This document shows positions 23,220-38,816 of a stretch of 44,599 nt of DNA, piece after piece. Each line of letters opens with the position of its first letter. Position 1 is the stretch's first letter. The stretch is taken from contig JAAESG010000231.1 in assembly GCA_024229615.1 (NCBI GenBank), forward strand, positions 1 through 44,599, read 5' to 3'. The notes under the pieces were generated by a model that ran no database searches, was not told the origin of the DNA, and worked only from the letters and a program-made list of their open reading frames with translations. This DNA comes from Gammaproteobacteria bacterium (GTDB taxonomy: Bacteria; Pseudomonadota; Gammaproteobacteria; GCA-001735895). A program made the translations under genes and the position numbers.

Positions 23220-24443
23220 ATGCTAGTCGACTACTGGCGCTTTGCTCGATCGAACGCGCGATTCCTCGGCTTCGGATTTTTTCTAGCTTTTCTTTCCAGT
23301 GCCGGGCAGACCTATGTCATCGGTGTGTTTGGTCCCCAGATCCAGGCCGATTTTGGACTCGATACCGGTAGTTGGGGGCGGATCTACATGTTCGGTACAC
23401 TCGCCTCAGCGATTGTAATCAATTGGAGCGGTTCGCTGATCGATCGGCTCGACCTGCGCCTGTTTACTGGCCTGGTTCTGCTCGGTCTCTGCGCTGCCTG
23501 CCTGGTGATGGGGTCGGTGACTTCGCCGCTGTTGCTGGTGTTCGCCATTTTCCTGTTGCGCCAGTTCGGTCAGGGGCTGAGCAGCCATGCCAGTATTACC
23601 TCGGTGGCGCGTTATTACGATAACGATCGTGGCAAGGCGATTGCACTGGCGGCGATGGGTTACGCTCTTGGTGAGGCGATCTTGCCGGTCGCCGGTTTAC
23701 TCGCTTCGCAACTCTGGGGTTGGCGGCATACGTTTCAAATTGTCGCGGTCGTCGTGCTTACCTCGATCCTGCCGGTCATGTGGCTGCTGAAAGGTCACGC
23801 CCAACGCCATGCGTCGCATCGGGCTGCGCTCGAAAAAAGAGCCGCAGAAGGCGGTGGATGGGGTGACTATAACCGTCTTCAAATGCTTTCCGAACGGCGC
23901 TTCTACTACCTGCTACCCGCGATGATCGCCACTCCGATGATCGGTACTGCGTTGTTCTTTTTCCCGGCCGAGATCGCACAGGCTAAAAACTGGAGCAGTT
24001 TCTGGGTAACCGGGAATTACTGGCTTTACTCGATGGTGTCGGTTGTAACCACGGTTTACTCCGGGGTGCTCATCGATCGTTTCAGCGCGAGGCGAGTTTT
24101 ACCCTTCTTTCTGCTGCCGTTGGGGCTTGCGCTGGTCGTAATCAACCTGTCCGATCATGTCTACCTGGTATGGCCCTTTCTGTTGCTACAGGGGATTACA
24201 TCCGGTCTTTATTTTACCGGCTTGAGCGCGCTATGGGCTGAACTCTATGGCGCCAGGCATCTGGGTGCAATCAAGTCGCTGACCAATGCGGTGATGGTAT
24301 TTTCTTCCGCCCTGGGCCCGGCGGCTGTCGGCAGTTTGCTGGAATGGGGGGTTTCCTTCGTCGCGATTACGCTGATGCTCGCCGGTTTCTGTGTTGTTGC
24401 GACCCTGATGCTGGTTCACGCACTGCGAATTCCGAGCCGTTGA
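23220..24443 (+). CDS. Major facilitator superfamily transporter
   Basis: The product of about 407 residues has twelve predicted membrane segments in two six-helix halves, split by a charged loop (GHAQRHASHRAALEKRAAEGGGWGDY). GSLIDRLDLR and GVLIDRFSARR are the cytoplasmic loop 2-3 and 8-9 motifs. The N-terminal LSSAGQTYVIGVFGPQIQADFGLDTGSWGRIY opening is seen in MFS proteins of the oxalate/monocarboxylate type. The substrate is unknown. I choose the ATG at 23220 over a TTG at 23208; neither has a good ribosome site. Its 3' end overlaps the convergent BKACE gene by 28 bases, leaving no room for a terminator between them. Confidence 0.85.
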   Translation: MLVDYWRFARSNARFLGFGFFLAFLSSAGQTYVIGVFGPQIQADFGLDTGSWGRIYMFGTLASAIVINWSGSLIDRLDLRLFTGLVLLGLCAACLVMGSVTSPLLLVFAIFLLRQFGQGLSSHASITSVARYYDNDRGKAIALAAMGYALGEAILPVAGLLASQLWGWRHTFQIVAVVVLTSILPVMWLLKGHAQRHASHRAALEKRAAEGGGWGDYNRLQMLSERRFYYLLPAMIATPMIGTALFFFPAEIAQAKNWSSFWVTGNYWLYSMVSVVTTVYSGVLIDRFSARRVLPFFLLPLGLALVVINLSDHVYLVWPFLLLQGITSGLYFTGLSALWAELYGARHLGAIKSLTNAVMVFSSALGPAAVGSLLEWGVSFVAITLMLAGFCVVATLMLVHALRIPSR

Positions 24444-25237
24444 CGCGCCGCTTCGGATGTCGCCGCGGCGAAGTCATTCTGTCGTAAAGCTGCCACCAGA
24501 CTTTCAACCAGACTGGCGGTGTTTGATGCTATGTTGCCGTTGGGCAGGTACAAATTATTTTCAAAGCCGATACGGGCGTTGCCGCCGGCTTCGATCGCGC
24601 GCATCACGCATTGTTGCTCCTTGTGACCAAAGGCGCAGGTAAACCAGTCAAGTTGGCTCAGGTCATATTGTAGAAACGAATCCAGGTCCGTGGGATCGGA
24701 CTGGAAATTGACGTTGTAGCGTCCGAGCACGAAGAGCACGCAACGATGCCCGGCTGGAATCACACCGCACTGCCGATAATCGAGGAATTGTTGGAGTTCA
24801 TCAGCCGAGTAAACGATATGCTGAATATGAACCTCGTGTTCATCGCACCACGCGAAATACTGTTGTGCGTAGTCGGGCTTTTCGAAGCTGGAACTGATTT
24901 CGCGTAGGCTTATACTCGCCATTTGCGGAACCACGGCCTGAATGCAGGCTATCTGTTGCTCGGGTGTATAAATTCCAACGGCTTCCGATGTCACCTGTAT
25001 CAGCATACCAGGGACCCGGACTGCCATTTCAGCGATCAATTCACGATATAGTCCGGCATCCAGCACGTGTTCATCGTTGCTGCCGCGAACGTGGGCGTGC
25101 AGTGCGCTGGCTCCCGCGGCGTGACAAAGCGCGGCTTCGCTAACCGTATCTTCGATCGAAACCGGCAGGGTGGCGTGGTCGCGTTTGGTCTTGCGGGCGC
25201 CATTCGGCGCCACCATGACGATGACATCGCGCGTCAT
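24416..25237 (-). CDS. BKACE family beta-keto acid cleavage enzyme (DUF849)
   Basis: The 273-residue TIM-barrel protein has the family zinc motif HAHVR (His47, His49, Arg51), an N-terminal APNGARK/LPVSIEDT segment, and GFENNLYLPNG near 224-234 with the catalytic-type Glu. BKACE enzymes condense a beta-keto acid with acetyl-CoA and cleave it to acetoacetate plus a new CoA thioester; known members act on 3-keto-5-aminohexanoate, dehydrocarnitine and others. It is last in the 14-gene cluster and overlaps the aminotransferase gene by four bases. This coupling suggests that the aminotransferase or a dehydrogenase supplies its keto substrate. The substrate class is not readable from the sequence. 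Confidence 0.85.
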   Translation of the reverse strand: MTRDVIVMVAPNGARKTKRDHATLPVSIEDTVSEAALCHAAGASALHAHVRGSNDEHVLDAGLYRELIAEMAVRVPGMLIQVTSEAVGIYTPEQQIACIQAVVPQMASISLREISSSFEKPDYAQQYFAWCDEHEVHIQHIVYSADELQQFLDYRQCGVIPAGHRCVLFVLGRYNVNFQSDPTDLDSFLQYDLSQLDWFTCAFGHKEQQCVMRAIEAGGNARIGFENNLYLPNGNIASNTASLVESLVAALRQNDFAAATSEAARQRLGIRSA

Positions 25238-26562: not shown

Positions 26563-26565
26563 TTT

Positions 26566-28986
26566 TCACCTGGTCGCGGCGCGCATGTTCGACCCGGAGG
26601 GATCGTAAACGGCATTTAGCGCGATAGTCCCGGCATTCTGACTGCGCGCTATATCGACGTCAACTTTAAGACCTGCCAAATAGTTCTCACTATTAGATTC
26701 AATCAGGGCTATCGCGACGGGTCTGCCAACCCGGTAACCGAATGATGCCGAAGTCGTTTTGCCGATAATTTTTCCATCGTGATAGACCGGCTCGTTACCG
26801 AGCGGTTGGGCGTCGACAGAATCGAACAGGATACTGACCAGTTTTTTATCAGGCGGATGATCTCGCTGTTCGAGTAGGGCAGTTCTGCCGATGAAATCGC
26901 TGTCCCAGTCGAGCGTAAATTCGAGGCCGGCCTGAAACGGGTTGATATCGGTGTCAAGGTCATGACCAAAGGCCAGAAAGCGTTTCTCGATGCGCATTGA
27001 AGTCTGCGCAAAAATTCCAGCGGGTTTTGCACCTGCACTACTCAGGGCGTCAAACAGTTGTTGCGCCTGTCGAGCCGGACAACTGACCTCCCAACCGGTC
27101 TCGCCGACATAGGAAAGGCGAACTGCGTCGACTTCAATGCCCGAAATCACGGTATTGAAAAATTGAAAATATCCCATTTGATTCAACTCGGAAGCCCCCA
27201 GTTGTTCGGCAATTCCGGGTGCACTGGGTCCCATCAGGGCGAGCACTGCATAGGCGTCGGTTACGTCGGTCAATTCGACCTGTTGGCCAGGCTTGAGATG
27301 GCGTTTCAACCAGGCCAGATCCCGCTTGATCGCACTGGTGCCCACATAGAGGCGATATTCGTTGGCGTTAATTCTTAGCGCGGTAAGATCGCTCTCATAA
27401 CCGCCGCGCTGGTTTAACATCGCGGTATAGATGGCCCGCCCCGGAGGCCGGGTCATATCGTTCGCGCAAACCCGGTTCAAAAAGATTTCGGCATCGATTC
27501 CGCTGACCTTTATTTTACCGAAACTGGATTGGTCGAAAATTGCTGCCTGCTCGTGAGCGTAACCCACTTCCCTGGCGACTAGATCAAACCAGTCAGGTTT
27601 GTTGAATGTCAGTCGGGGTTCCTGTTGTTTATCGAAGTAGAGTGGCCGCTCCCAGCCATAAAACTGGCCAAAATGCGCCTTGTTATCCTGCCATTTCGAG
27701 TGCAGCGGGGTTAGTTTCAATTCACGTGCGGTTTGCAATTGAATCCCCGGGTAATGAATTGCATAGTGAGTGCCGAGAATTTCAGGTACCCGGGCGCTGA
27801 GGGCTGCAACGGAATTGAAGCAGGATGGATAACGCTTTGGGTCTGCTTCATGCAAATCGGTCGGGGTGTGGCCGTGAACGATGCAATGAGCCAGGGCCAT
27901 GCCCGCACCCCCGCCGGTGGCCACGCCAACCGAATTCATACCACAACCGAGAAACAGGCCCTGAGTCTCGGCACTTTCCCCTAGCAGGAACGAGCCGTCC
28001 GGGGTAAAGCTCTCGGGACCGTTGAGCAACATGCGAATATCGGCATCGGCGAGGCAGGGTAGTCGATGCAGGGCATTTTCCAGCATCGGCTCGAAGTGGT
28101 CCCAGTCTTCGGGTAATAGCTGAAACGCGAAATCTTTGCCGATTTGGTCGGGATCTATCGCTTTACCCATGGGTTCGAAGCAACCCACTAGTAAACCACC
28201 GGAATCGTCGCGAATATACAAATGGTTATCGTGATCGGATAGTGTGGGCAGGTTCCCGGATACTCCTTCGATCGGATTGGTGAGCAGATAAAAATGCTCA
28301 CAGGGCCAGACCGGAATTTCAACACCCGCCATCGCGGCATTTTCGCGACTCCACAGACCGCTGCAGATTGCGATCGCGTCGCAGGCAATTTCCCCGGCAC
28401 TGGTTTCGACGCCGACAATAATATTGTCTCGGCTTTTAATCCCGGTGACGCCAGTGTGCTCGAAAATTTTCGCACCCCTCGCTCTGGCGCCCTTGACCAG
28501 TGCCGCGCACAGGTCGGATGGTCCAACCCGACCATCCTCCGGTGACCAGACCGCGCCGATCACGTCCTCGGTGTTCATCATCGGCCAGCGCTCTTGCGCC
28601 TCGGCAACCGAAATGGAATTCGCCGCCACGCCGTACATGCGGGCCAGGGATTCCTGCCGCTTGATGAAATGTAGCCGATCCGGGTTGGTCGCGATCGACA
28701 GCGAACCCTTGTTGATCCAGCCAGTGGCTTGCCCGGTTTCCTGTTCGAGTGAACTGTAGAGCGAAATCGAGTAACGGATCAGGTCGGTCAGATTCTTGCT
28801 CGAACGTAACGCGCGTACCTGCGCAGCCGAATGCCAGGTCGTACCGGAGGTCAATTCGTTACGTTCCAGCAGTATTGCGTCGCTGACACCGGCTTTGGCG
28901 AGGTGATAGAGCGTGGAGCAGCCCATCACACCACCGCCGATAACGACGACAGAGACTTGAGCGGGTAAGTCTTGGATGGAAGTCAC
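26566..28986 (-). CDS. FAD-dependent demethylating dehydrogenase with GcvT domain (DMGDH/SarDH family)
   Basis: The 806-residue protein has an FAD fold (IGGGVMG near 16-22) and the canonical TTWHSA motif with His52 for covalent FAD. A DAO catalytic domain runs to about 370, then a linker (FAO_M-like), and a GcvT-like THF-binding region runs from about 430 to the C-terminus, with VRLSYVGETGWEVSCPARQ near 646-664. This matches dimethylglycine and sarcosine dehydrogenases more closely than the 4099-6663 paralogue does. It should remove an N-methyl group and give 5,10-methylene-THF. It begins with GTG; AAGG is only two bases upstream and no better start precedes the FAD motif. It follows the importer ATPase gene by 18 bases, so its substrate is probably imported by that system. 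Confidence 0.88.
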   Translation of the reverse strand: MTSIQDLPAQVSVVVIGGGVMGCSTLYHLAKAGVSDAILLERNELTSGTTWHSAAQVRALRSSKNLTDLIRYSISLYSSLEQETGQATGWINKGSLSIATNPDRLHFIKRQESLARMYGVAANSISVAEAQERWPMMNTEDVIGAVWSPEDGRVGPSDLCAALVKGARARGAKIFEHTGVTGIKSRDNIIVGVETSAGEIACDAIAICSGLWSRENAAMAGVEIPVWPCEHFYLLTNPIEGVSGNLPTLSDHDNHLYIRDDSGGLLVGCFEPMGKAIDPDQIGKDFAFQLLPEDWDHFEPMLENALHRLPCLADADIRMLLNGPESFTPDGSFLLGESAETQGLFLGCGMNSVGVATGGGAGMALAHCIVHGHTPTDLHEADPKRYPSCFNSVAALSARVPEILGTHYAIHYPGIQLQTARELKLTPLHSKWQDNKAHFGQFYGWERPLYFDKQQEPRLTFNKPDWFDLVAREVGYAHEQAAIFDQSSFGKIKVSGIDAEIFLNRVCANDMTRPPGRAIYTAMLNQRGGYESDLTALRINANEYRLYVGTSAIKRDLAWLKRHLKPGQQVELTDVTDAYAVLALMGPSAPGIAEQLGASELNQMGYFQFFNTVISGIEVDAVRLSYVGETGWEVSCPARQAQQLFDALSSAGAKPAGIFAQTSMRIEKRFLAFGHDLDTDINPFQAGLEFTLDWDSDFIGRTALLEQRDHPPDKKLVSILFDSVDAQPLGNEPVYHDGKIIGKTTSASFGYRVGRPVAIALIESNSENYLAGLKVDVDIARSQNAGTIALNAVYDPSGSNMRAATR

Positions 28987-29004
28987 TACCTTGTGTTAAA
29001 AAAC

Positions 29005-29760
29005 CTAGAGTATCTGACTCAGGAATTCCTGGGTGCGTGGGTCCTTGGCCTCGGTGAAGAAGGTTGAAGGCGGACCATGCTCGACAATCACCCCGCGATC
29101 GGTGAAATAGATGTGATCCGCGACCTCGCGGGCAAATCCCATTTCATGGGTGACCAGAATGCAGGTCATGCCATCCTGTGCCAGGTCCTTGATTGCCAGC
29201 AATACTTCGTTGACAGTTTCCGGATCAAGTGCGGCAGTCACCTCGTCGAACAACATGACGTCCGGGTTCATTGCCAGCGAACGCGCAATTGCGACGCGTT
29301 GTTGCTGCCCGCCGGAGAGTTCCCCTGGATAGGAATTTTCTTTACCAACCAGGTTGACTCGCTTGATCAGTTTGCGTGCGCGTTCCTCGACTTCGTCGGG
29401 GGCTTGTTTTAACACTTTTATCGGCGCCATCATGACATTTTCGAGTGCGGTTTTATGCGGGAATAAATTGTACTGCTGAAAAACCATGCCGACATTCTTG
29501 CGCAGTTTGAGCTTGTCGAGTTCGGGGTTGTTGACCTCGATACCTTCTACTTTGATGGAGCCACTGTCGATCGTGTTTAGCGCGTTGATGCAGCGAATCA
29601 GTGTCGACTTGCCCGAACCCGAAGGTCCGATGATGCAAATGACCTCACCTTGCCTGACGTCGAGGGTGACTCCCTTCAAGACCTCCAGTTCACCGAAAGA
29701 TTTATGCACATCTCGAATCGAAACCAGTGGTTGTTCGGGAGTCCAGTCACTATTGCTCAT
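29005..29760 (-). CDS. Polar amino acid ABC transporter, ATP-binding protein
   Basis: The 251-residue ATPase has Walker A GPSGSGKST (45-53), Q-loop FQQYNLFPH (94-102), signature LSGGQ (148-152), Walker B VMLFDE (168-173) and an H-loop in LVTHEMGF. It is of the GlnQ/HisP type that powers polar amino acid import. The residue after the Walker B Glu is Val where Pro is usual (DEVTAALDP); this variant occurs in some amino acid ATPases. It lies 21 bases after the permease gene and 18 before the FAD-GcvT gene. Confidence 0.92.
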   Translation of the reverse strand: MSNSDWTPEQPLVSIRDVHKSFGELEVLKGVTLDVRQGEVICIIGPSGSGKSTLIRCINALNTIDSGSIKVEGIEVNNPELDKLKLRKNVGMVFQQYNLFPHKTALENVMMAPIKVLKQAPDEVEERARKLIKRVNLVGKENSYPGELSGGQQQRVAIARSLAMNPDVMLFDEVTAALDPETVNEVLLAIKDLAQDGMTCILVTHEMGFAREVADHIYFTDRGVIVEHGPPSTFFTEAKDPRTQEFLSQIL

Positions 29761-29781
29761 CTCGGGCGCTCCGGGTCTGGG

Positions 29782-30669
29782 TTATTGTCGGACAGCAAAT
29801 TTTTTCTCCAGTCGTATCGTATAACGCGCAATTGGATAGCAGTATGCGAAAAATATGATCAGGGCGAAACCGAAAAACGGCACCAGCAACTCGGGATGAT
29901 TGTCTTCGGCTTCCATGGCCTGGCGCGAAAGCGTTACGATTTCCTCGACCCCGAGTAACGAGATCAACGGGGTTGCCATGGTCAGGATCGCATACCAGTT
30001 CATCCAGGGAGGAATCATCCGCTTGAAGCATTGTGGAAGAATTACCAGCCACAGGGTCTGGTTGCGTGAGTAGGCGAGCGAATCGGCCGCCTCCCATTGA
30101 CCGGTGGGTACCGAAATTATGGCACCGCGCACGATTTCGGAAATATTTGCCATGATTGGCAGCGCGAGTCCGAAGACCGCCTTGAGCCAGTCGGGAATCG
30201 GATATATGTGATCACCGATCTGGATTTCAAAGGGCAGGGCGAGCATAACGATGAATAACAGCACCAGCCACGGAGAATTACGAAACAACTGGGTGATAAA
30301 CCAGCTTGGTGCGGCAATTGCTCTGGCCGGTGAAACCTGCCCCAGGCCGAGCAATACGCCCGCGATAGTGCCGACCAGCATAGTCATAAAACTGACCACC
30401 AGGTTCAGCACGAATCCCTTACCGACGATAAACGGCAACCAACGCCACAGGGCGTCCAGCGCTTGTGAAAAGCTGTAATTGCTTTGCGCCAGCGCGAAGC
30501 CAGGCCAGGCCAGTAAAATCAGTGCGATCAGGAAAAGACTGCGTGGCGAGAACTCGGCCAGCCAGCGACTGAACAGTAAGTCGTTTACCTGACCCGCGGG
30601 GCTGAATTTGAACGGTTTTAAAACCGCCAGATCGGTATTTGTCGTGGTTAAAGCCGGTTTGGCGTTCAT
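29782..30669 (-). CDS. Polar amino acid ABC transporter, permease 2
   Basis: The 295-residue inner-membrane permease of the HisMQ family has an unusually long N-terminal region (about 75 residues, with one extra membrane segment), reminiscent of AapM/BztC-type subunits. Core helices follow, then the EAA-type cytoplasmic loop EIVRGAIISVPTGQWEAADSLAYSRNQTLWLVILPQ that docks the ATPase. It overlaps the first permease gene by four bases. Together with the partner permease it should form the heterodimeric channel. Confidence 0.9.
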   Translation of the reverse strand: MNAKPALTTTNTDLAVLKPFKFSPAGQVNDLLFSRWLAEFSPRSLFLIALILLAWPGFALAQSNYSFSQALDALWRWLPFIVGKGFVLNLVVSFMTMLVGTIAGVLLGLGQVSPARAIAAPSWFITQLFRNSPWLVLLFIVMLALPFEIQIGDHIYPIPDWLKAVFGLALPIMANISEIVRGAIISVPTGQWEAADSLAYSRNQTLWLVILPQCFKRMIPPWMNWYAILTMATPLISLLGVEEIVTLSRQAMEAEDNHPELLVPFFGFALIIFFAYCYPIARYTIRLEKKFAVRQ

Positions 30670-31418
30670 GTGCCATACCCCGGAATACGTAATTTGCGCT
30701 CCCAGCGGCTCATCCCCAGCACGAGAACACCGACCAGCAGGAAGTAGGCGAAAAACAGGAACAACATGCAGGCGTTCTGCGCGGTTGAATAATCGTTATA
30801 AATGCTGATCATCTGATACAACAGTTCGGGCACCGCGATAGCAAGTGCTTGTGTAGTAGTCTTGACCAGATTGACCAGGTTGTTGTTCAGTGCCGGCAGC
30901 GTGACCCTAAAGGCGAGTGGTAGAACGATGTAAATATAGATTTGCAAACGGTTCATGCCGAGCGCTTCCGCGGCTTCCTGTGTCGACTCGGGTACCGCCT
31001 CGATACCGGCCCTGAATATTTCGACATTAAACGCGCCGGCGAAAAAAGACAGCGATATGATGGCCCAGCCGACATTGGAAATAATCGGAACTTCCAGCCA
31101 GCCGTCGGGTGAATAGGTCGGTGTAAACTGCCCCAGCGCAAAATAGAAAAACATCAGCTGGATGAGTGGCGGTGTATTGCGGAAAAACTGGATATACCCC
31201 TGCATGAAGAGCCGCAGGGTTTTGGAATGGGCGCCCTGTACCCAGGCGCCGACGATGCCGATAATGACGCTAAGGATGACGCATATGATTGAAAGTTCCA
31301 GTGTCATCCAGAACCCTTCGATGACACGGTCGGTCTGAGTCGGGTCGTAAAAGTAGATGAAATTCCATTTCGGGTGCGTCTGCGCCAGATCGTAAAAGTA
31401 TTGCTGAAATGAATTCAT
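30666..31418 (-). CDS. Polar amino acid ABC transporter, permease 1
   Basis: The 250-residue permease has the HisMQ signatures FMQGYIQFFRNTPPLIQLMFFYF and the EAA loop GIEAVPESTQEAAEALGMNRLQIYIYIVLPLAFR. It has about five membrane segments and a short periplasmic N-terminus (QYFYDLAQTHPKWNF). It sits 71 bases downstream of the binding-protein gene and overlaps the second permease by four bases. The ribosome site is weak (AAAG), so expression may depend on the upstream hairpin and read-through. Confidence 0.9.
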   Translation of the reverse strand: MNSFQQYFYDLAQTHPKWNFIYFYDPTQTDRVIEGFWMTLELSIICVILSVIIGIVGAWVQGAHSKTLRLFMQGYIQFFRNTPPLIQLMFFYFALGQFTPTYSPDGWLEVPIISNVGWAIISLSFFAGAFNVEIFRAGIEAVPESTQEAAEALGMNRLQIYIYIVLPLAFRVTLPALNNNLVNLVKTTTQALAIAVPELLYQMISIYNDYSTAQNACMLFLFFAYFLLVGVLVLGMSRWERKLRIPGYGT

Positions 31419-31438
31419 ATCTTTACGTGCCGCAAAAG

Positions 31439-31466
31439 TCCCGGCAGGATTTGTTTCCGGCCGGGA
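31439..31466 (-). terminator. Intercistronic hairpin between SBP and permease genes
   Basis: TCCCGGC and GCCGGGA pair across a 14-base loop. There is no strong T-run. Such elements commonly let the binding protein be made in excess over the membrane subunits, by partial termination or mRNA protection. Confidence 0.5.
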
Positions 31467-31489
31467 ATGTCGCGTAAAACGTTAGAGAT

Positions 31490-32338
31490 CTACTGAATCC
31501 AGTCGGCGAAGCGCTCGTTCTGGTTCTTCAGGTACTGGGTTGCCTGGATGCCCCATTTCTTTTCCAGCTCGATTAGTTTACCGGATTGGTGCAGGTTGTA
31601 AGTCAGTCCCGACATGAAGTTGCCGAAAATGCAGTCTTTTTCCGGGAGCGGAACCGCGAGACCCCAGGGGTTGTCGTCTTCACTGTTGAGTGGCATTTCA
31701 TAGGTATCGTAATTACCTGACGACAGGTCGGACATGATTGAAGAATCGTCGTAAACCCAGGCGATACACTTCTTATCGCGCAGCGCCTGCTTGGCTTCGG
31801 CATTACCGGTAAAGGCGACAATTTTGACACCATAGCGATCAGAAACCACCTTGTTATAAAAAGCGCCCTGCTTTCCACAAACCGGCTTGCCGCGCAAGTC
31901 TTCCCACTTTTTAATGCCGACGGCCCTGGGGGACATGACATTAGTACCCGAGGTGTAATAGTTGGGCTGGGTGATACCGACAATCTTGCGTCGATCGGGA
32001 CGGTCGGACATGGTCGCGATCATCATGTCGATCTTGCCGTTTTCCAGGAACTGCATGCGGTTGGATGACTGTACCGCAACGAGTTCAAGCTCTACGCCCA
32101 TCGCGTCGGCGGCGATTTTCGCCATGTCTGCTTCCATACCTACTATGGCGCCGCTGGTATCACGGAAACCCCAGGGCTTGTAGTCAGCTTTGACACCGAC
32201 CACCATCTTGCCGCGTTTCATGACCTTGTTCCAGCCGTCGTTGCTGCAAGTCATGCCTGCGGCGAAGCTGGTGCTGCTGGTCAGGATAAGAGCCGCCGAA
32301 GCCGCACTGACGAGCATTGATTTGATTGATTGATTCAT
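31490..32338 (-). CDS. Polar amino acid ABC transporter, substrate-binding protein (family 3)
   Basis: The 282-residue product has a signal peptide (cut after STSFA near 26). The SBP_bac_3 domain shows KMVVGVKADYKPWGFRDTSGAIVGMEADMAKIAA near 44-78, DMMIATMSDRPDRRKIVGITQPNYYTSG near 104-131, and GKPVCGKQGAF. The Arg in the SDRPDRR segment and the Asp near 74 are the usual alpha-amino group contacts, so an amino acid-like ligand is likely, in line with the catabolic genes. GGAGG lies seven bases before the ATG. A putative promoter lies about 75-100 bases upstream. Confidence 0.92.
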   Translation of the reverse strand: MNQSIKSMLVSAASAALILTSSTSFAAGMTCSNDGWNKVMKRGKMVVGVKADYKPWGFRDTSGAIVGMEADMAKIAADAMGVELELVAVQSSNRMQFLENGKIDMMIATMSDRPDRRKIVGITQPNYYTSGTNVMSPRAVGIKKWEDLRGKPVCGKQGAFYNKVVSDRYGVKIVAFTGNAEAKQALRDKKCIAWVYDDSSIMSDLSSGNYDTYEMPLNSEDDNPWGLAVPLPEKDCIFGNFMSGLTYNLHQSGKLIELEKKWGIQATQYLKNQNERFADWIQ

Positions 32339-32410
32339 CGATTCCTCCAGGTTGTTTATGTTATTGGTATGTTTCCCGTTTTGATGTGACGGGATTATTC
32401 TTTGCGCGTC

Positions 32411-32439
32411 ATTTAACAGCAGATCAGGAAATCATGCAA
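32411..32439 (-). promoter_or_regulatory. Candidate internal promoter before the SBP gene
   Basis: On the minus strand TTGCAT (32439-32434) and TTAAAT (32416-32411) are 17 bases apart, 72 bases before the SBP start, in the widest gap (141 bases) of the cluster. Matches to the sigma-70 consensus are partial (3/6 and 4/6), so this is a weak prediction. Confidence 0.35.
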
Positions 32440-32479
32440 ATATTGAAATCGGTATGACACGCGCCAGCCGACGGTATCG

Positions 32480-33118
32480 CTAGGAAATCGGCATGAACTT
32501 ACCGGCTTCCCAGTCATAGGCACTGAGCTGAGGGGCTGCGATGTCGACATACCAGCCATGTAGTTGCAAGTCACCCAACTGAATACGTTCTCGCACCCAC
32601 GGGAAGGTGGTCAGGTTTTCCAGCGATACGAGTACAGCGTTCTGCTCGCAGGCGCGCGTACGAGCTTCGGGGCCGGCGTGTGACATGGTGGCGAGTACAC
32701 GGCGATGGGCGGCAGACAGCATTGACACCCAGGCGGGCACGAACTTGAAGGAACTGTCATAGGGATCGGGTTCCATCATTAATTTGATGCCGCCACAATG
32801 CGCGTGGCCCAGTACCAGTATATGCTTGACGCCAAGACCCAGCACCGCGAACTCGAGCGCCGCGCTGGTGCCGTGATAGGTGCCCTCCTCTTCCATCGGT
32901 GGCACCAGGTTGGCGACGTTACGCACCATGAACAAATCGCCGGGATCGGCCTGAAAAAGTATCGCAGGATCGACCCTGGAGTCGGAGCAGGCGACCACCG
33001 CCACTTCTGGGTGCTGCCCCTCGGAAACAAGACTTTCGATCAGCGGGCGGGTTTCTTCATAGTCGCCATTGCGATAGCGCCGGTAACCCTGCATTAATTT
33101 TTCGACACCGTCTTTCAT
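32480..33118 (-). CDS. Beta-class carbonic anhydrase
   Basis: The 212-residue product has all ligands of a beta-carbonic anhydrase: Cys44, Asp46 and Arg48 in ACSDSRVDP, and His105 and Cys108 in GHAHCGG. FMVRNVANLV and TSAALEFAVLGLGVKHILVLGH complete the active site. It interconverts CO2 and bicarbonate in the cytoplasm. It sits inside a catabolic cluster between an SDR gene and the importer genes, 17 bases after the SDR stop. I choose the ATG at 33118; a TTG at 33139 would overlap the SDR gene by four bases. It may retain CO2 released in the pathway or feed a carboxylase elsewhere; neither is shown here. Confidence 0.9.
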   Translation of the reverse strand: MKDGVEKLMQGYRRYRNGDYEETRPLIESLVSEGQHPEVAVVACSDSRVDPAILFQADPGDLFMVRNVANLVPPMEEEGTYHGTSAALEFAVLGLGVKHILVLGHAHCGGIKLMMEPDPYDSSFKFVPAWVSMLSAAHRRVLATMSHAGPEARTRACEQNAVLVSLENLTTFPWVRERIQLGDLQLHGWYVDIAAPQLSAYDWEAGKFMPIS

Positions 33119-33135
33119 TATAGATTCTGTTCCGT

Positions 33136-33897
33136 TCAAAAAGGCAGGGGCAGTTTGCTGGTGCGGCCGCCGTCGATGACGATGACCTGGCCGGTCACAA
33201 ACGCCGAATCATCGCTGGCGAGGTATACCGCGAGCTTGCCGACATCATCGGCTTCGCCGATACGGCCGAGCGGATGCATTTTATAGAGTTCCTCCCAGGC
33301 TGTCTCGGGGTTTTGCTGGGCATTGATATAGTCGTCACTGAGGGCTGAACGAATCCAGCCCGGCGCGATCGCATTAACGCGGATTTTATCCTCGCCGAGG
33401 TCGACCGCCATGGCCTTTGTCAGTGCGTGCACACCGCCTTTGGAAGCGCAATAGGCGGTGTGCTGCGGGTTGGCCGCGAGTCCTTCGATCGATCCGATGT
33501 TGATAATACTGGCGCCATTGGCCGCGCGCAGCTGTGGTAGCAGCGCTTTACTCAGAAACACGGGCGCTGTCAGGTTGAGTGCGAGCATCTGGCTCCATTC
33601 GTCGAGTTGCATCTGTTCGAGTGATTTTTCAAACATGATGCCGGCGTTATTGACCAGGATATCTACTTTGCCATGTGCCTGGCGTACGGTGTCTGCAATC
33701 AGTGCGTAGCTTTGCGTCTGTGACAGATCCGCTTCGACCCATAACACCCTGTCTTGCTTGGACAACTCCGCGGGCAATGGGCTGCGTTGTGCGACGACGA
33801 TCGATGCACCGGCGGCCAGCATCGCCTGGCTGATACCGAGACCGATGCCCTGGCCACCACCGGTGATAACGGCCACCCTGGCTTCGAGTTTACTCAT
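33136..33897 (-). CDS. SDR-family oxidoreductase (B)
   Basis: The 253-residue classical short-chain dehydrogenase has TGGGQGIG (12-19) for the cofactor, NNAG (83-86), catalytic Ser136 (NIGSIEG), Tyr149 and Lys153 (YCASK), and a C-terminal VTGQVIVIDGG. It has no acidic residue at the usual position after the second beta strand (VVAQRS), so NADP is possible. It is separated from the other SDR by three bases. It probably oxidises or reduces a hydroxyl/keto group in the pathway. Confidence 0.9.
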   Translation of the reverse strand: MSKLEARVAVITGGGQGIGLGISQAMLAAGASIVVAQRSPLPAELSKQDRVLWVEADLSQTQSYALIADTVRQAHGKVDILVNNAGIMFEKSLEQMQLDEWSQMLALNLTAPVFLSKALLPQLRAANGASIINIGSIEGLAANPQHTAYCASKGGVHALTKAMAVDLGEDKIRVNAIAPGWIRSALSDDYINAQQNPETAWEELYKMHPLGRIGEADDVGKLAVYLASDDSAFVTGQVIVIDGGRTSKLPLPF

Positions 33898-33900
33898 CGT

Positions 33901-34668
33901 TTAACCGTATACGGGTTTGGCTCCGGTGACTTCAACGGTTTCGCCGCAAACATAGCGTGCGTCATGCGATGCCAGAAAAGCGATCACGTCCGCAATTTCC
34001 TCGGGTTCGGCGATATGTCCCAGCGGAACCGTTTTACCCAGGTCTTCAACCGCGGTAACCGGATCGATTCCACGACGGATAAAACCGCTGCGTAACATCG
34101 CTGTGTTGACTTCATTCGGACATACTGCGTTGACGCGGATACCGTCCTGCGCATGATCCCGCCCCAGGCATTTAGTCAGCGCGGCGAGCGCTGCCTTGCT
34201 GGTGCAGTAGGCGACATGATCCGGGCCCGGGTAGATGCCCCAGGTCGACGAAGTGTTGACGATTGCGCCATCGCCAGCCACCTGCATCTGTGGGATCGCC
34301 GCACGGCACAGGAAAAAAACCGCATTCAGGTTCACATCCAGCGCGCTGAACCACATATCGTCGGTAGTTTCGAGTATATTGCCGCGCGGGATGATGCCGG
34401 CATTGTTGATCAGAATATCGATACCACCCAGTTTTTCCACGGCGTGGGCGATAAGCGTTTCACAATAGGGCTTCTGGCGCAGATCGCCGGCCAGGAAACT
34501 GGTTTCCAGACCTTTTTGAGACAGTGTTTCACTGAGGTCTTCGCAGTCTTCTATGCTGCGATCGGAAAACAGTACTTTTGCGCCTTCTCTGGCAAACAAT
34601 TCGACCAGTGTGTGGCCGATGCCACCGCTGCCACCGGTAATGACAACTCTTTTATCTTCAAATCTCAT
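33901..34668 (-). CDS. SDR-family oxidoreductase (A)
   Basis: The 255-residue classical SDR has TGGSGGIG (11-18), Asp36 at the NAD-preferring position (LFSDRS), NNAG (88-91), Ser140/141 (NTSSTWG), Tyr154 and Lys158 (YCTSK), and VNAVCPNEVNTAML. It is not a recent duplicate of SDR B: identity is confined to family motifs, so the two probably act on different steps. It starts two bases after the DadA-like gene and ends three bases before SDR B. Confidence 0.9.
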   Translation of the reverse strand: MRFEDKRVVITGGSGGIGHTLVELFAREGAKVLFSDRSIEDCEDLSETLSQKGLETSFLAGDLRQKPYCETLIAHAVEKLGGIDILINNAGIIPRGNILETTDDMWFSALDVNLNAVFFLCRAAIPQMQVAGDGAIVNTSSTWGIYPGPDHVAYCTSKAALAALTKCLGRDHAQDGIRVNAVCPNEVNTAMLRSGFIRRGIDPVTAVEDLGKTVPLGHIAEPEEIADVIAFLASHDARYVCGETVEVTGAKPVYG

Positions 34669-34670
34669 GA

Positions 34671-35915
34671 TTAGAAAAATCTTCGTGGGCTGAATGGGGT
34701 TATATTGTGGCTTGGTTCTTCACCGTTTGCCAGTTCGGCGATCAACTTGCCGGTAATCCCTGACAGCGTCAATCCGAGATGATGGTGTCCAAATGCGTAG
34801 AGGATGAACTCCGACGACGTACTGTAACCAATAACCGGCAAGGCGTCGGGGCAGGTGGGCCGATAACCGAGCCATTCCTGGTCGGGTTGTTGGGGAAGTT
34901 CGAGCATTTGCTGCGCCTTGCGTGTCAGGTATTCGATGATGCGGGGATTTGCCGGTTTCTGCTTACCCGCTATTTCGACGGTGCCCGCAATGCGCATGGC
35001 CTGATCCGTTGGGGTTGCATAGAAACCGGCGTGATGCCAGCTTACCGGGCGTTTCAGCAAGTGCTGCATATTGTTGTACTGTACGTGATAGCCACGCTCG
35101 GTATCGAGTTTAAGCAGTGACATCGGGATACCTTTAATCGATTTCGAGAATGCGCCCGCGGCAATGACGACGCGCTCGGCTTCGATGTTTTCACCATTAT
35201 CGAGTTGAATCTGCACTGAACCGTCGCCATGAATCACTTCGAGCGCGCGATGAGGCAACAGCTGCCCCTGATTGCGTTTGAAGCACTCCACGTACCGCTG
35301 ACACAGAGTCAACGGATTCAGCACGTGGCTGATGCTGTCAAACAGCAGGCCGCGTTTGAACGGAAATTTCAGATTGGGTTCGAGATCCTGGATGTCGCCC
35401 TGGTCCAGCTCGATGAAGTTGGAACCCTGTTCGCGGCGTGCCTGGTTTGATCGTTTCACGGCGTCGAACTCTCGCTGATCGACATAAACATGCATGAATC
35501 CCTGTTGCGTTAACAGGTCACGTGCATCCGCCATCTCGAGTAACGGATCGAGGCCTTCGTAGGTTTTTGCCAGCAACTTGCCGAGCAAACGGGTGATTCG
35601 GGCCACCTTGTGTTCGCGGCAATTCGCCAGGAAATCGATCATCCACCCCGGATGAGAGAGTACGTAGGCGAGATCCAGGGTCAGGGGGCTTTCACGGGAA
35701 AATATCAGTGACGGCAAACGGCGGAATATATCCGGGTTGTTCACCGGAATGCACCCATACTCCGCGATGGTGCAGGCGTTGCCCGAGGAAGTGCCTGAGC
35801 CCGGGGCTTCAGGATCGATCAGGGTGACCGCAAAACCTTTCTTCTGCAGCCACAGGGCACAACTGCAACCAACGATACCGGCACCGATCACGGCGATATG
35901 GGTGGAGGAACTCAA
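34671..35915 (-). CDS. DadA-like FAD-dependent D-amino acid dehydrogenase/oxidase
   Basis: The 414-residue DAO-family flavoprotein has GAGIVG at 11-16, SGTSSGNACTIAEYGCIPV near 40-58 (no covalent-FAD His), and a C-terminal GYRPTCPDALPVIG and FGHHHLGLTLSG. This is the layout of DadA, which deaminates D-amino acids, and of related N-alkyl amino acid dehydrogenases. The only workable start is TTG at 35915, with GGAG five bases upstream; no ATG precedes the FAD motif. It is preceded by a 98-base gap, the second widest in the cluster. The substrate is unknown; it is unlikely to be simple sarcosine oxidase because it lacks the WHSA-type motif. Confidence 0.85.
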   Translation of the reverse strand: MSSSTHIAVIGAGIVGCSCALWLQKKGFAVTLIDPEAPGSGTSSGNACTIAEYGCIPVNNPDIFRRLPSLIFSRESPLTLDLAYVLSHPGWMIDFLANCREHKVARITRLLGKLLAKTYEGLDPLLEMADARDLLTQQGFMHVYVDQREFDAVKRSNQARREQGSNFIELDQGDIQDLEPNLKFPFKRGLLFDSISHVLNPLTLCQRYVECFKRNQGQLLPHRALEVIHGDGSVQIQLDNGENIEAERVVIAAGAFSKSIKGIPMSLLKLDTERGYHVQYNNMQHLLKRPVSWHHAGFYATPTDQAMRIAGTVEIAGKQKPANPRIIEYLTRKAQQMLELPQQPDQEWLGYRPTCPDALPVIGYSTSSEFILYAFGHHHLGLTLSGITGKLIAELANGEEPSHNITPFSPRRFF

Positions 35916-36013
35916 GCGAACTCCGGATTTCGGTCTTTTTTCAAGGCCAGATAGTGTATTGAAACTCGTAGTGAACCGATACTGGTATTTTTTGCTTTAG
36001 AGATCATCCCGCC

Positions 36014-37024
36014 TTATATAGCCAGAGCCTTGCGCAACATTACTCCCAGGTGTTCGCGGCTTGCCGGATCCATTAGATTGAGCGCGGGTAAACCGGATAG
36101 CTTTTTCACCAACGCGATGGCAGCGTCGGTGTTGGCCGCACCGCCAGCGACCAGATCGGGATTGCGCTGGAATGCCGTTTGTACGCCGACCACGGCATAC
36201 GGATCCTGTGCACAAAGTAGTTTGAATTTGACGTTATCCCGAATCATTTCCTTGGCTATCGCCCCATTGTATGGCTCGAGTGGCGAGGCACCGGCTTCGG
36301 CGACGACGACATCGGGTTTGTCCCTCGCGATTAGCGACAGGAGATAGGGGAGGGCTTGGCGATAGGTCGTTTCATCAACGGCAGAAGACGGCAGGCCTGC
36401 ATCGACAAAGTCGTAAATAGCCCTCGCGCCGGCATCACCAAAACTCAACATGTCGCGATAACGAGCCGCCCCGGTCAGTTTTGCACCGACGACGTTGAGA
36501 CCCATCTGTGACAACAGGTGGACAATGACACGCCCGGACATGGTTTTTCCGGATGACATGGATGTGCCGACGATGAGGATGACCGGGATATCGAAATCAA
36601 TGATATCGATTTTGCTCAAGCTTCCCCGCATCGTCACCTTGGTCTCGTTGCGCATGACGTGCCCGTGATATTGCAAACGCATTGGCGATGAAATGAATGG
36701 AGACAGTGAGGTAACCTTTCCGAACAGACCGGCGGCCGTCAGAGCATTGAACTCGCCCGACTCGTCGATCGATTGCCAGGAGCCAACGGCTTCCAGGGTC
36801 GCCACCCGGTTACCGAAAGCGCCGACCACGAGGTCGCCTTCCATGATCTCTATCATGCGTCCATCGGGCAGTTCGACCGCTTTCAGGTGGCCGCGTGTAT
36901 CGAGTACCTTGCCAACCACGTAGTCGCCAGTGTCCCAGTAGTCGCGCCCAATGGCCGTGGTGGTGAAGTTGGTGGGTGACAGGTCGGAGATTCGGGTCAC
37001 GGATGCCAGGAATGGACGTATCAT
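36014..37024 (-). CDS. Unrecognised P-loop protein, catabolic-cluster associated
   Basis: I do not recognise this 336-residue protein with confidence. A beta-rich N-terminal domain (about 1-140, rich in Gly and Val, with VVGKVLDTRG and GRMIEIMEGDLVVGAFGNR) is followed by a P-loop GTSMSSGKT (153-161) and a Rossmann-like domain. The latter has VVGAKLTGAARYRDML, DFVDAGLPSS, VVVAEAGASPLEPYNG and a C-terminal helical tail. The P-loop and the VVVAEAG strand suggest nucleotide-dependent chemistry, perhaps kinase- or ligase-like, or a metallochaperone-type NTPase. A distant relation to DUF1611 proteins is possible but unproven. GGGAG lies seven bases before the ATG, and it is 21 bases after the M20 gene. 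Confidence 0.75.
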   Translation of the reverse strand: MIRPFLASVTRISDLSPTNFTTTAIGRDYWDTGDYVVGKVLDTRGHLKAVELPDGRMIEIMEGDLVVGAFGNRVATLEAVGSWQSIDESGEFNALTAAGLFGKVTSLSPFISSPMRLQYHGHVMRNETKVTMRGSLSKIDIIDFDIPVILIVGTSMSSGKTMSGRVIVHLLSQMGLNVVGAKLTGAARYRDMLSFGDAGARAIYDFVDAGLPSSAVDETTYRQALPYLLSLIARDKPDVVVAEAGASPLEPYNGAIAKEMIRDNVKFKLLCAQDPYAVVGVQTAFQRNPDLVAGGAANTDAAIALVKKLSGLPALNLMDPASREHLGVMLRKALAI

Positions 37025-37045
37025 CGATCTGCTCCCATTTGCGCT

Positions 37046-38203
37046 TCAGATTTTGAGCGGTGGTGTCAGTAGCAGCAGGGTGAGCAAGGCGCAACGTACC
37101 GGCAATGAATCGGGGTAGATATACTCGTGACTAGCATGGGCGCCATCGCCGACCGCACCCATACCATCGATGGTTGCGGTATATAGACTGGTGGTGTTGC
37201 CGTCAGAGCCACCGCCCGCAGTACCCTGCTCGAGATGCAGGTCAATATCTTCACCGAGTTGCCGGGTGATTTTCCACAGGCGTTGATTGTCCTCGGTGCG
37301 TTCCATGGGCGGACGTCCGATCGCGCCTTCAATCAGTAATGAAACCCCCGGGGTTACGGCCTCGAGGTTATGAATCGCGTGTTCCACGCGCTCGGCGTCC
37401 TGCTGGGTCTGAACCCGCACGTCGACTACTGCGCGGCTCTCAGGCGCCACCATGTTGGGCCGAATACCGCCATCGATGACTCCGACATTGACCGAGGTTC
37501 CGTGTTCCGGATCGTTCAATTCAAACAGTTTTTGAATGATGTGCGACAGCTCGAGAATAGCGCTCGCACCAGCACCCGGGTCCAGCCCGGCGTGCGCGGC
37601 CTTGCCCTGTACTATAACCGTAAAGCGGCCGACGCCCTTGCGCGCCGTTTTTATTTTGCCGCTGTGACCCAACGAAGGTTCGAGTACCATACAACGATCG
37701 ACGCATTGCGCCAGCGCACGCACGTAGCGCGTCGATTCGTGGCTGCCGATTTCCTCATCCGAGTTGATGAAACACAGTGGCGCCACACTGGGTTTCAGAT
37801 CCAGTAGTTCGATCGTGCGCAGCGCGTAAATCATTTCCACGAGACCGGCCTTCATGTCGTAAACCCCTGGCCCGCGCAGTGTGCCGGGCTCACACTGCAG
37901 CGGCATGGTTTGCAGGGTTCCAATTGGCCATACAGTGTCACAGTGGCCGAGCATTAATTGCGCGGGTTGCCGCTTTGTCCGGTAGCCGGGTGCTGCGTAC
38001 ACGTGACCGCCAGAGTTGCGCCCGGGAATCAGTTTGACACGGTAGCCGATTGCCTCGAATTCGGATTTCAGACGCAGGCGAATTTGCGCCTGGCTAGCGG
38101 GCTCGGTTGACGGAGTTTCCATTTTCACCAGGTCGCTCAGCAATCCGATCATGGAATCCTGCTGAGCGCACAAATGATCGAGCACCTCGAGCTTGGCACT
38201 CAT
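37046..38203 (-). CDS. M20-family metallohydrolase (carboxypeptidase G2-like)
   Basis: The product of about 385 residues has the M20 zinc set: His and Asp in LGHCDTVWP, the bridging Asp in GVYDMKAG, the Glu pair in NSDEEIGS, the Glu in LEPSLG, and the last His in DGAHASHEYIY. It also has the KAAHAGLDPGAGASAI dimerisation-domain motif and TAGGGSDGN near the end. The pattern is closest to carboxypeptidase G2, which hydrolyses N-acyl or peptide bonds next to a carboxylate. It may release an amino acid from an N-acyl or dipeptide precursor. I choose the ATG at 38203, four bases after the flavin reductase stop, with AAGAGA upstream; a frame from 38320 would overlap that gene heavily. Confidence 0.87.
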   Translation of the reverse strand: MSAKLEVLDHLCAQQDSMIGLLSDLVKMETPSTEPASQAQIRLRLKSEFEAIGYRVKLIPGRNSGGHVYAAPGYRTKRQPAQLMLGHCDTVWPIGTLQTMPLQCEPGTLRGPGVYDMKAGLVEMIYALRTIELLDLKPSVAPLCFINSDEEIGSHESTRYVRALAQCVDRCMVLEPSLGHSGKIKTARKGVGRFTVIVQGKAAHAGLDPGAGASAILELSHIIQKLFELNDPEHGTSVNVGVIDGGIRPNMVAPESRAVVDVRVQTQQDAERVEHAIHNLEAVTPGVSLLIEGAIGRPPMERTEDNQRLWKITRQLGEDIDLHLEQGTAGGGSDGNTTSLYTATIDGMGAVGDGAHASHEYIYPDSLPVRCALLTLLLLTPPLKI

Positions 38204-38207
38204 CCGC

Positions 38208-38816
38208 TTATCTCTTAAAGCCTGCGGGAAGCGGTAATTGATTGCTGCTGGCGATTTCGGCAAAACGCCCCGGGTAGAGATAGGCCAGCAAGGGTGCCGA
38301 GTAGACGAGGTCTTCGTCATCCCGGTCCGAGGAGCGCAGCGCGTCCTCTGCTACCCTGGCGTTCTTAATACGACCGATGATGAGCGAGTTTTCTTCCAGG
38401 TTGTCGACGATTTGCTGTAATTCACATTCGAGGAAAAGGTAGCCATCCTGCAGCAGCGGTGCGTTGACCGATTGCGCAGCAAAAGTGGGCAACGCCTGTG
38501 TGATTGGCTTACTGCCATCTGCGCAACGTGGTGTCGCCGCCAGACTCGCGAGCACGGTCTGGGATGGGCGCATATAAGTAACGGCAAACTGCCGATTACG
38601 CTGGATGTTTTGATAGGTGTTATGGCGCGGTGTACAGACAAAGCCGAAGTGGTTCTTCCAGCTCATTGGCATTGCCAGATGTTTGGGAGCGAGATCGTCG
38701 CTGCCGTCCGTTTCCCGGGTGCCGATGACGACCAGCGGGAAAACTGTGAAGAAACTTTCCCAGATGGAACTACTGGTGTCCAATTCGATCAAAGTCGAAG
38801 TTACCGTATCAGCCAT
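38208..38816 (-). CDS. Flavin reductase-like (FMN-binding split barrel) protein
   Basis: The 202-residue protein fits the flavin-reductase-like domain: FPLVVIGTRETDGSDDLAPKHLAMPMSW near 25-52, FVCTPRHNTYQNIQRNRQFAVTYM near 59-82, and LFLECELQQIV with a C-terminal PLLAYLYPGRF. Such proteins reduce FMN for a monooxygenase, or act as FMN-dependent oxidoreductases. No partner monooxygenase is in the cluster. It is the first gene of the 14-gene run, divergent from the thiol-protein gene across 88 bases, which should hold promoters for both. Confidence 0.82.
   Translation of the reverse strand: MADTVTSTLIELDTSSSIWESFFTVFPLVVIGTRETDGSDDLAPKHLAMPMSWKNHFGFVCTPRHNTYQNIQRNRQFAVTYMRPSQTVLASLAATPRCADGSKPITQALPTFAAQSVNAPLLQDGYLFLECELQQIVDNLEENSLIIGRIKNARVAEDALRSSDRDDEDLVYSAPLLAYLYPGRFAEIASSNQLPLPAGFKR

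Follow-up and report, generated by a model that had tools for sequence, protein, structure and literature searches.

A conserved two-module, probably catabolic gene cluster of a gammaproteobacterial genus and a P-loop protein family with members in arginine operons

Results

The window analyzed here is a stretch of 44,599 nucleotides that represents one entire contig (JAAESG010000231.1) of the 735-contig genome of a gammaproteobacterium (assembly GCA_024229615.1). On its minus strand, 14 consecutive open reading frames (ORFs) between positions 38816 and 24416 form a conserved gene cluster, which is no chance junction of unrelated genes. The block consists of two modules. Module I begins with a trio of genes for a flavin reductase-like protein, an M20 metallohydrolase, and a P-loop protein, which is followed by genes for a DadA-like FAD oxidoreductase (DAO), two short-chain dehydrogenases (SDR1 and SDR2), and a carbonic anhydrase. 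Module II comprises an amino-acid ABC importer, a FAD-GcvT fusion protein, an aminotransferase, and a beta-keto acid cleavage enzyme (BKACE). Rather than a single indivisible pathway, the block is a composite of gene sets that are also found separately. It probably serves to break down an imported amino compound, possibly an N-methylated one, via a beta-keto acid. We tentatively favor a division of labor in which module II would import the compound, demethylate it where FAD-GcvT is present, transaminate it, and cleave it where BKACE is present, and in which module I would prepare or channel the substrate.

Gene order is conserved among relatives

Genomes (G-numbers) and loci (L-numbers) of relatives were compared, and 31 genomes were tabulated from the fetched loci; many of the absences in this tabulation are contig ends. 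The relatives, which include the Gamma 3 endosymbiont of Olavius algarvensis (scaffold DS021199.1), preserve the gene order, usually between genes for AhpC and an MFS protein (tabulated in 19 and 18 of the 31 genomes, respectively). Eight further loci compared alongside Gamma 3 stem from metagenome-assembled genomes. This recurrence of the order in the neighborhood comparison shows that the block was not joined by chance. The co-occurrence of its genes was verified only in part: the order is conserved, but single parts are absent and all 14 genes were found in just 2 of the 31 genomes (its own and G016), a count that is limited by contig ends. Thirteen genes were found in G015 (without FAD-GcvT), G003 (without carbonic anhydrase), and G024 (BKACE past the contig end). 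With contig ends included, the aminotransferase was retained in 26 of the tabulated genomes, BKACE in 17, and FAD-GcvT in 12.

The distribution was also determined for 41 genomes of the order. DAO (E ≤1e-100) and the aminotransferase (E ≤1e-120) were each found in 27 genomes, all of them belonging to the genus of the window; 25 genomes contained both, two only DAO, two only the aminotransferase, and 12 neither. Gene 3, which encodes the P-loop protein, had matches in 22 of the 41 genomes; two of these matches are distant (27–28% identity), so that 20 remain, 18 of them in the genus. DAO and the aminotransferase are present in every one of the 18 trio-type genomes in the genus, and the P-loop gene and the aminotransferase gene share a contig in 12 of them and are on separate contigs in six.

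Parts of the block are absent or occur apart

The genes for carbonic anhydrase, importer, FAD-GcvT, and BKACE are each absent from some members, beside genes that remain. SDR2 and the aminotransferase are only 170 bases apart in G030, without carbonic anhydrase, importer, and FAD-GcvT, and the ATPase is reduced to a remnant of 67 residues in G026. Seven gaps that lack FAD-GcvT were tested; a 32-base remnant of the gene was detected in one of them (L092, G005), and none was found in the other six (E 0.01). The two modules can also be physically separated. DAO-SDR1 of G022 is situated about 16 kb from a string of RpiR/binding protein-permeases-ATPase-FAD-GcvT-aminotransferase-BKACE, in which the RpiR gene is divergent. 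In G010, a fused hydantoinase A/B gene, DAO, a glutamine-synthetase-like gene, an unknown gene, SDR1, RpiR, and the start of FAD-GcvT follow one another on one contig, and FAD-GcvT-aminotransferase-BKACE are located on another. At this trio-less locus (L087:6991-13697) the hydantoinase and glutamine-synthetase-like genes flank DAO, and their products may provide the entry enzymes in place of the trio. In G007 and G008, where the SDRs are absent, DAO directly adjoins the aminotransferase. The region preceding DAO is also variable: an AraC-type gene is located between AhpC and DAO in G009, G023 carries an ORF at the same place, a GCS2-like protein of 475 aa is encoded just upstream of DAO in L082 (1148-2572; weak Pfam match for this copy), and a GCS2-like ORF lies about 0.5 kb upstream of DAO in L083 (9800-11227).

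The leading trio is absent from several cluster members, and it was seen in seven of eight more distant loci (L027, L028, L041, L046, L049, L051, and L052), of which L027 and L028 may still belong to the genus; in the eighth, L050, the contig ends before the flavin reductase gene. Gene 3 is 49–79% identical in the more distant loci.

Several points weigh against the proposed two-module cluster. No DAO homologue was present in the stretch examined of any of the eight more distant loci (that of L046 breaks off within gene 3, and those of L027 and L049 less than 1 kb past it), and a whole-genome DAO search was negative for L041 (G037) and L046 (G036); therefore, the trio may not belong to this pathway. 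FAD-GcvT and the importer are absent from members that retain the rest, and thus the core can do without demethylation. BKACE accompanies the aminotransferase in 17 of the 26 tabulated genomes that have the latter, and the contig ends in three others (G024, G018, G002). In 6 of the 23 assessable genomes BKACE is absent beside the aminotransferase, the rest of these genomes not having been searched: an MFS gene or its fragment directly follows the aminotransferase in G017, G029, G011, and G020, and no BKACE is present in the contig stretch examined of G007 and G008. In Gamma 3 (L074:4601-7264) the BKACE gene is broken into two ORFs and only a remnant of FAD-GcvT is left; at the L038/L074 boundary SDR2 and carbonic anhydrase are separated by about 15.6 kb of other genes. 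The non-universal BKACE and the split or separated parts in Gamma 3 count against a single obligatory route. The Gamma 3 cluster has the appearance of a decaying one. Finally, within the genus alone the association of DAO and the aminotransferase is weak (25/2/2/2, Fisher p 0.07), because almost all members of the genus carry both.

The first-pass annotation had proposed one complete route, encoded by all 14 genes, to acetoacetate, a CoA thioester, and methylene-tetrahydrofolate. Genes 12–14 fit these products, and parts of the set recur in alphaproteobacteria (see below), but a single route for the whole set is not supported: the absences beside remaining genes, BKACE in six genomes among them, the separated modules of G022, where module II has an RpiR-type regulator of its own, and the trio that is absent from several members and occurs without DAO elsewhere speak against it.

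These observations also raise the possibility, which we regard as somewhat doubtful, that functionally unrelated operons have become neighbors in one lineage. Module II would then degrade one compound, and the trio and DAO-SDR-SDR would do something else, e.g., acylate and deacylate amino acids at the nitrogen or act in repair. The trio-bearing stretches without DAO, the module II string of G022 with its own RpiR gene, and a 141-base gap at the module boundary of the window are in accordance with such a separation. However, the direct contact of DAO and the aminotransferase in G007 and G008, the G010 contig on which DAO and SDR1 are joined to RpiR and the start of FAD-GcvT, and the shared contig of trio and aminotransferase in 12 of 18 trio-bearing genomes, despite absent genes between them, argue for a connection between the modules.

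The two-module catabolic cluster is the reading that we tentatively prefer. In the scheme that we infer for its reactions, its substrate, and the roles of genes 2 and 3, the products of genes 8–11 would import the amino compound, and gene 12, where present, would transfer an N-methyl group to tetrahydrofolate. The aminotransferase (gene 13) would convert a beta-amino acid into a beta-keto acid, from which BKACE (gene 14), where present, would form acetoacetate and an acyl-CoA with acetyl-CoA as the second substrate. DAO and the SDRs might oxidize C–N and C–OH bonds. The P-loop protein may N-acylate the amino acid or an intermediate, and the M20 enzyme may take the acyl group off again, with the flavin reductase-like protein as a partner. 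This scheme is considered the best explanation because the gene order is conserved, DAO and the aminotransferase co-occur, the aminotransferase and BKACE are paired in alphaproteobacteria, and the P-loop family is linked to N-acylated glutamate.

The aminotransferase-BKACE pair outside the genus

A plasmid search with the aminotransferase yielded 328 records, of which 25 were listed. Nine alphaproteobacterial loci were opened among the listed matches, and BKACE adjoins the aminotransferase in seven of them, in either order. An annotated MurR/RpiR regulator is in view in five of the nine loci, and TAXI-TRAP and universal stress protein genes in four. Two further loci, picked via BKACE matches, likewise show the pair. 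Among the matches listed, the aminotransferases are 59–68% and the BKACEs about 39–44% identical to those of the window. Unlike the window, the alphaproteobacterial loci contain other transporters (TAXI-TRAP, GlnHPQ, and others), and no trio, DAO, or carbonic anhydrase is annotated in the loci opened, the annotation of which is incomplete. A GcvT C-terminal fragment is annotated beside the pair in Alloyangia. The closest plasmid-encoded FAD-GcvT, that of Marinovum, is 61% identical and is located beside TAXI-TRAP and universal stress protein genes, which also adjoin the aminotransferase in Thalassospira, Pseudosulfitobacter, and Paracoccus sp. SMMA_5_TC.

BKACEs of the same clade occur in other contexts as well. 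In Microvirga the gene lies beside a 3-hydroxyacyl-CoA-dehydrogenase-like gene and in Skermanella about 6 kb from one, which could represent another way to a beta-keto acid; in Rhizobium leguminosarum no annotated aminotransferase adjoins it. The neighbors of BKACE and its known reaction suggest a pathway logic, i.e., oxidation or transamination at C3 and subsequent cleavage.

Two candidates for further counterparts were rejected. An SDR gene beside the pair in Limimaricola encodes a protein that is just 25–32% identical to the SDRs of the window, and the best plasmid matches of DAO and M20 are less than 41% identical, the three loci opened showing no counterpart of the cluster. The Ruegeria pomeroyi megaplasmid (L103:6168-13805) carries, in a row, genes for a protein of the trimethylamine methyltransferase family, an aminotransferase of class III, and two FAD-dependent oxidoreductases; one of the oxidoreductases is 47.5% identical to gene 12, and the locus is a distant parallel to module II.

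Gene calls, spacing, and protein families

The features of the block are summarized in Table 1. All 14 ORFs described in the first-pass annotation are present, and Pfam and NCBIfam uphold the families first named for 13 of the products, the P-loop protein being the exception.

Table 1. Genes of the block and the gap at the module boundary, in the direction of transcription.
Feature	Position	Strand	Basis and remarks
Gene 1, flavin reductase-like protein, PF01613, 202 aa	38208..38816	-	Pfam; opens the trio also found without the rest elsewhere
Gene 2, M20 metallohydrolase, ~385 aa from ATG 38203	37046..38203	-	Pfam/NCBIfam; longest ORF begins at 38320
Gene 3, P-loop protein, 336 aa	36014..37024	-	Weak DUF1611 match; full-length homologue of arginine-operon protein
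Gene 4, DAO/DadA-like FAD oxidoreductase	34671..35915	-	Pfam/NCBIfam
Gene 5, short-chain dehydrogenase 1 (SDR1)	33901..34668	-	Pfam/NCBIfam; YxxxK present
Gene 6, short-chain dehydrogenase 2 (SDR2)	33136..33897	-	Pfam/NCBIfam; YxxxK present
Gene 7, beta-carbonic anhydrase	32480..33139	-	Pfam and motif; absent from some relatives
Gap at module I/II boundary, 141 bases	32339..32479	-	7-pair inverted repeat 32374-32394
Gene 8, family 3 amino-acid-type solute-binding protein	31490..32338	-	Pfam
Gene 9, amino-acid ABC permease	30666..31418	-	Pfam/NCBIfam
Gene 10, amino-acid ABC permease	29782..30669	-	Pfam/NCBIfam
Gene 11, ABC ATPase, GlnQ-like	29005..29760	-	Pfam/NCBIfam
Gene 12, FAD-GcvT fusion, dimethylglycine dehydrogenase type	26566..28986	-	Pfam/NCBIfam; absent from some relatives
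Gene 13, class III aminotransferase, NF005685/PRK07483	25234..26562	-	NCBIfam; 753 bits, above equivalog cut-off of 485
Gene 14, BKACE, PF05853	24416..25237	-	192 bits vs. cut-off of 24.8

The M20 ORF, as listed, runs 113 bases into the flavin reductase gene because the first in-frame ATG was chosen as its start. Another in-frame ATG, which is located at 38203, 4 bases past the flavin reductase stop, should be adopted as the start of the M20 gene. With this start, the tight spacing that had been noted earlier is confirmed: 10 of 13 junctions are at most 21 bases long and three of these are 4-base overlaps. The exceptions are the gaps P-loop/DAO (98 bases), carbonic anhydrase/binding protein (141 bases), and binding protein/permease (71 bases). 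An uninformative promoter/terminator scan revealed fewer sites than the shuffle means (6 vs. 9.1 and 11 vs. 16.0), and none of the three long gaps held a terminator-like site on the minus strand.

The expected motifs were found in all ten block proteins examined. The M20 protein has the M20 motifs, and the nearest solved structures are those of carboxypeptidase G2 (88 bits). The solute-binding protein retains an Arg and an Asp aligned with those of amino-acid binders, residues that we take to be typical of binders of alpha-amino acids. The FAD-GcvT protein unites the domains DAO, FAO_M, GCV_T, and GCV_T_C within a single chain. It resembles dimethylglycine dehydrogenase and other FAD-GcvT demethylases in that it matches solved enzymes over most of its length (425 bits) and has the FAD motif and the TWH motif. 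Many clusters that are otherwise alike lack FAD-GcvT or retain only a remnant of it.

In the open-access literature, most subscription papers being outside this scope, no paper was found that describes this gene set in its title or at the start of its abstract. Homarine degradation was considered as a match and rejected, no open-access paper describing this gene set for it having been found. The cluster is judged to be a new combination of known modules.

The BKACE clade and possible substrates

An alignment of 25 BKACEs was analyzed, which contained 22 members of the clade of gene 14 (19 linked to the aminotransferase, three not) and the three other BKACEs of this genome. The metal-site His-x-His and Glu positions and an Arg position are conserved in all 25. 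Gene 14 shares these with the BKACE of lysine fermentation, Kce, but it scores 112.7 bits with the Kce equivalog model, far below the cut-off of 382. In addition, Kce Glu-14 is replaced by Arg and Asp-231 by Asn in all 22 clade sequences, a count that does not represent 22 independent events because the sequences are related. The three other BKACEs of the genome have Gly, Gly, and His at the former and Asp at the latter position. The Kce letters were read from an alignment with Kce; the residue numbers and the roles of Glu-14 and Asp-231 are our assumption. The clade pattern AP(N/T)G(A/G)R and FEN(N/S) was seen in the window (24416-25237) and in L036, L037, L039, L065–L069, L072, L086, L088, L091, L095, L104–L110, and L112, paired with the aminotransferase or near a hydroxyacyl-CoA-dehydrogenase-like gene.

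The Arg could mean that the aminotransferase-BKACE end acts on an acidic beta-amino acid, e.g., by converting beta-glutamate to 3-oxoglutarate, the distal carboxylate of which would be bound by the Arg. This is unlikely, in spite of the uniform replacement of Glu in the clade and of the glutamine-type importers and TAXI-TRAP genes of some loci. It would agree with a study in which BKACE group G4 takes negatively charged substrates (PMC4922564). FAD-GcvT, however, suggests an N-methylated substrate, and the binding protein keeps the residues presumed to be typical of alpha-amino-acid binders. We know of no N-methyl-beta-glutamate, and the argument from Glu-14 and Asp-231 depends on their assumed roles.

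A variant of carnitine or betaine degradation, in which an SDR would make the beta-keto acid, BKACE would cleave it, and FAD-GcvT would demethylate the released methylated glycine, is very improbable. It would explain the presence of BKACE, FAD-GcvT, and two SDRs in one cluster, but the clade BKACE has Arg in place of the Kce Glu, unlike the three other BKACEs of the genome, and the aminotransferase is kept more widely (26 of 31) than the two enzymes on which this variant relies. Furthermore, we identified nothing in the block that is specific to carnitine: among the matches listed for the block proteins (the best 25 in the case of the SDRs, the ATPase, and the aminotransferase), no NCBIfam equivalog for a carnitine-specific dehydrogenase or transporter scored above its cut-off.

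The P-loop protein

For gene 3 no Pfam family scored above its cut-off, and the sole weak match (E ≤10) was DUF1611 (PF07755) with 16.1 bits vs. a cut-off of 25; relatives of gene 3 reached 23.5, 25.4, and 21.7 bits. A sequence search of the PDB yielded nothing at E ≤1. An alignment-based structural model was obtained with a mean pLDDT of 75, and its residues 145–336 match CTP synthase (Z 13.8) and 2g0t (Z 13.2), with SRP GTPases and other P-loop NTPases close to these values; the Foldseek matches were mostly P-loop NTPases of other kinds. We take 2g0t as well as DgcN, an enzyme of the irreversible racemization of D-glutamate, to be DUF1611 proteins. The aligned P-loop domain and the weak Pfam match thus resemble this family, but gene 3 stays below its cut-off, and since CTP synthase has an equally high Z score, the fold does not single out DUF1611. 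A profile comparison of gene 3 with eight second-tier homologues, which are encoded in arginine operons, gave a probability of 100% (E 1.8e-40) over 322 columns, showing that the N-terminal and the P-loop parts are both shared with them.

Homologues of the P-loop protein in arginine operons

At eight loci (L053–L060) a P-loop homologue is flanked by argG and argC, as revealed by tblastn with the proteins of two of the operons. Seven of the eight also have argD, the N-acetylornithine carbamoyltransferase gene, argB, and argH; L060 is on a short contig. At a ninth locus, L062 (G655), argC and argB are on one side of the homologue, and argG was not found with tblastn. The genes were named by comparison with NCBIfam models in the case of L057 and L056, for which argG, argC, N-acetylornithine carbamoyltransferase, argH, and argB exceeded the cut-off of the matching model, and argD (334.6 vs. 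410 bits) and an argR-like gene (101.5 vs. 130.45 bits) remained below it.

The nine operon genomes (G158, G206, G080, G057, G313, G326, G405, G273, and G655) belong to seven families. None of them had ArgA above cut-off or ArgJ, and their main TIGR01890 match spans the kinase part only. They were compared with nine other genomes (G000, G016, G001, G345, G243, G315, G340, G048, and G631) in a first set of 18, the groups of which were formed after the operons had been seen, except for G243, which was opened later. All nine others had ArgJ, and eight (not G631) had ArgA above cut-off. Except for G655, every operon genome (8 of 9) had N-acetylornithine carbamoyltransferase above cut-off, compared with none of the nine others of this first set, to which this search was confined.

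A second set was taken from 33 homologue genomes, of which 17 were newly opened, i.e., 16 untested ones and G243. No arginine-operon genes were found beside the homologue at the 17 newly opened loci, save for an argD-like aminotransferase gene in L128. Fifteen of the 16 genomes had ArgJ (not G213; it is a fragment in G127 and cut by a contig end in G329), 15 had ArgA above cut-off (not G490), and each had one or the other. In both sets together, neither ArgA above cut-off nor ArgJ was found in the nine operon genomes, and at least one of them was found in all 25 others; this comparison leaves out G011, and genomes in it share families. This contrast makes the gene 3 family a candidate for an N-acylglutamate synthase.

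Weak matches to the GNAT part in four of the nine operon genomes (G273, G405, G326, and G206) speak against this, since a divergent GNAT synthase is possible; such matches also occur in ArgA-bearing genomes, e.g., G000 and G127. A PF04768 search gave no match anywhere, controls included, and therefore says nothing about absence. The P-loop proteins differ from the known synthases ArgA and ArgJ in that they have no GNAT or ArgJ match, and the candidate role is read from the gene context, i.e., from their position in arginine operons where neither enzyme was found. The arginine-operon homologues are 46–76% identical to the first of them, and the other homologues are 27–33% identical to them. The operon type may thus represent a branch of its own, the function of which does not necessarily apply to gene 3.

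The word “P-loop” is absent from the main text, as far as available, of a 2015 review of N-acetylglutamate synthases (PMC4490483), and the available part of the GapMind paper (PMC7311316) names no P-loop N-acetylglutamate synthase. No paper in the open-access literature contained both “N-acetylglutamate synthase” and “DUF1611.”

Discussion

The link between the P-loop protein and arginine operons is the most interesting lead of this analysis: the gene 3 family may contain a first enzyme of arginine biosynthesis that has so far been overlooked. With less than even confidence, gene 3 can be placed in an unrecognized family of P-loop proteins that N-acylate amino acids. In several proteobacterial families, one branch would initiate arginine biosynthesis as a non-orthologous N-acylglutamate synthase. 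A second branch, together with the M20 deacylase and the flavin reductase-like partner, would be a portable cassette for acylation and deacylation, which in this genus would have become linked to a catabolic cluster with a new BKACE subfamily at its end.

The aminotransferase and the distinct BKACE clade constitute a testable genetic module for the presumed degradation of an amino compound, which is common to marine gamma- and alphaproteobacteria, a worm symbiont included. For bacteria that apparently lack the known enzymes, the gene 3 family offers a new candidate for the reaction with which arginine synthesis begins.

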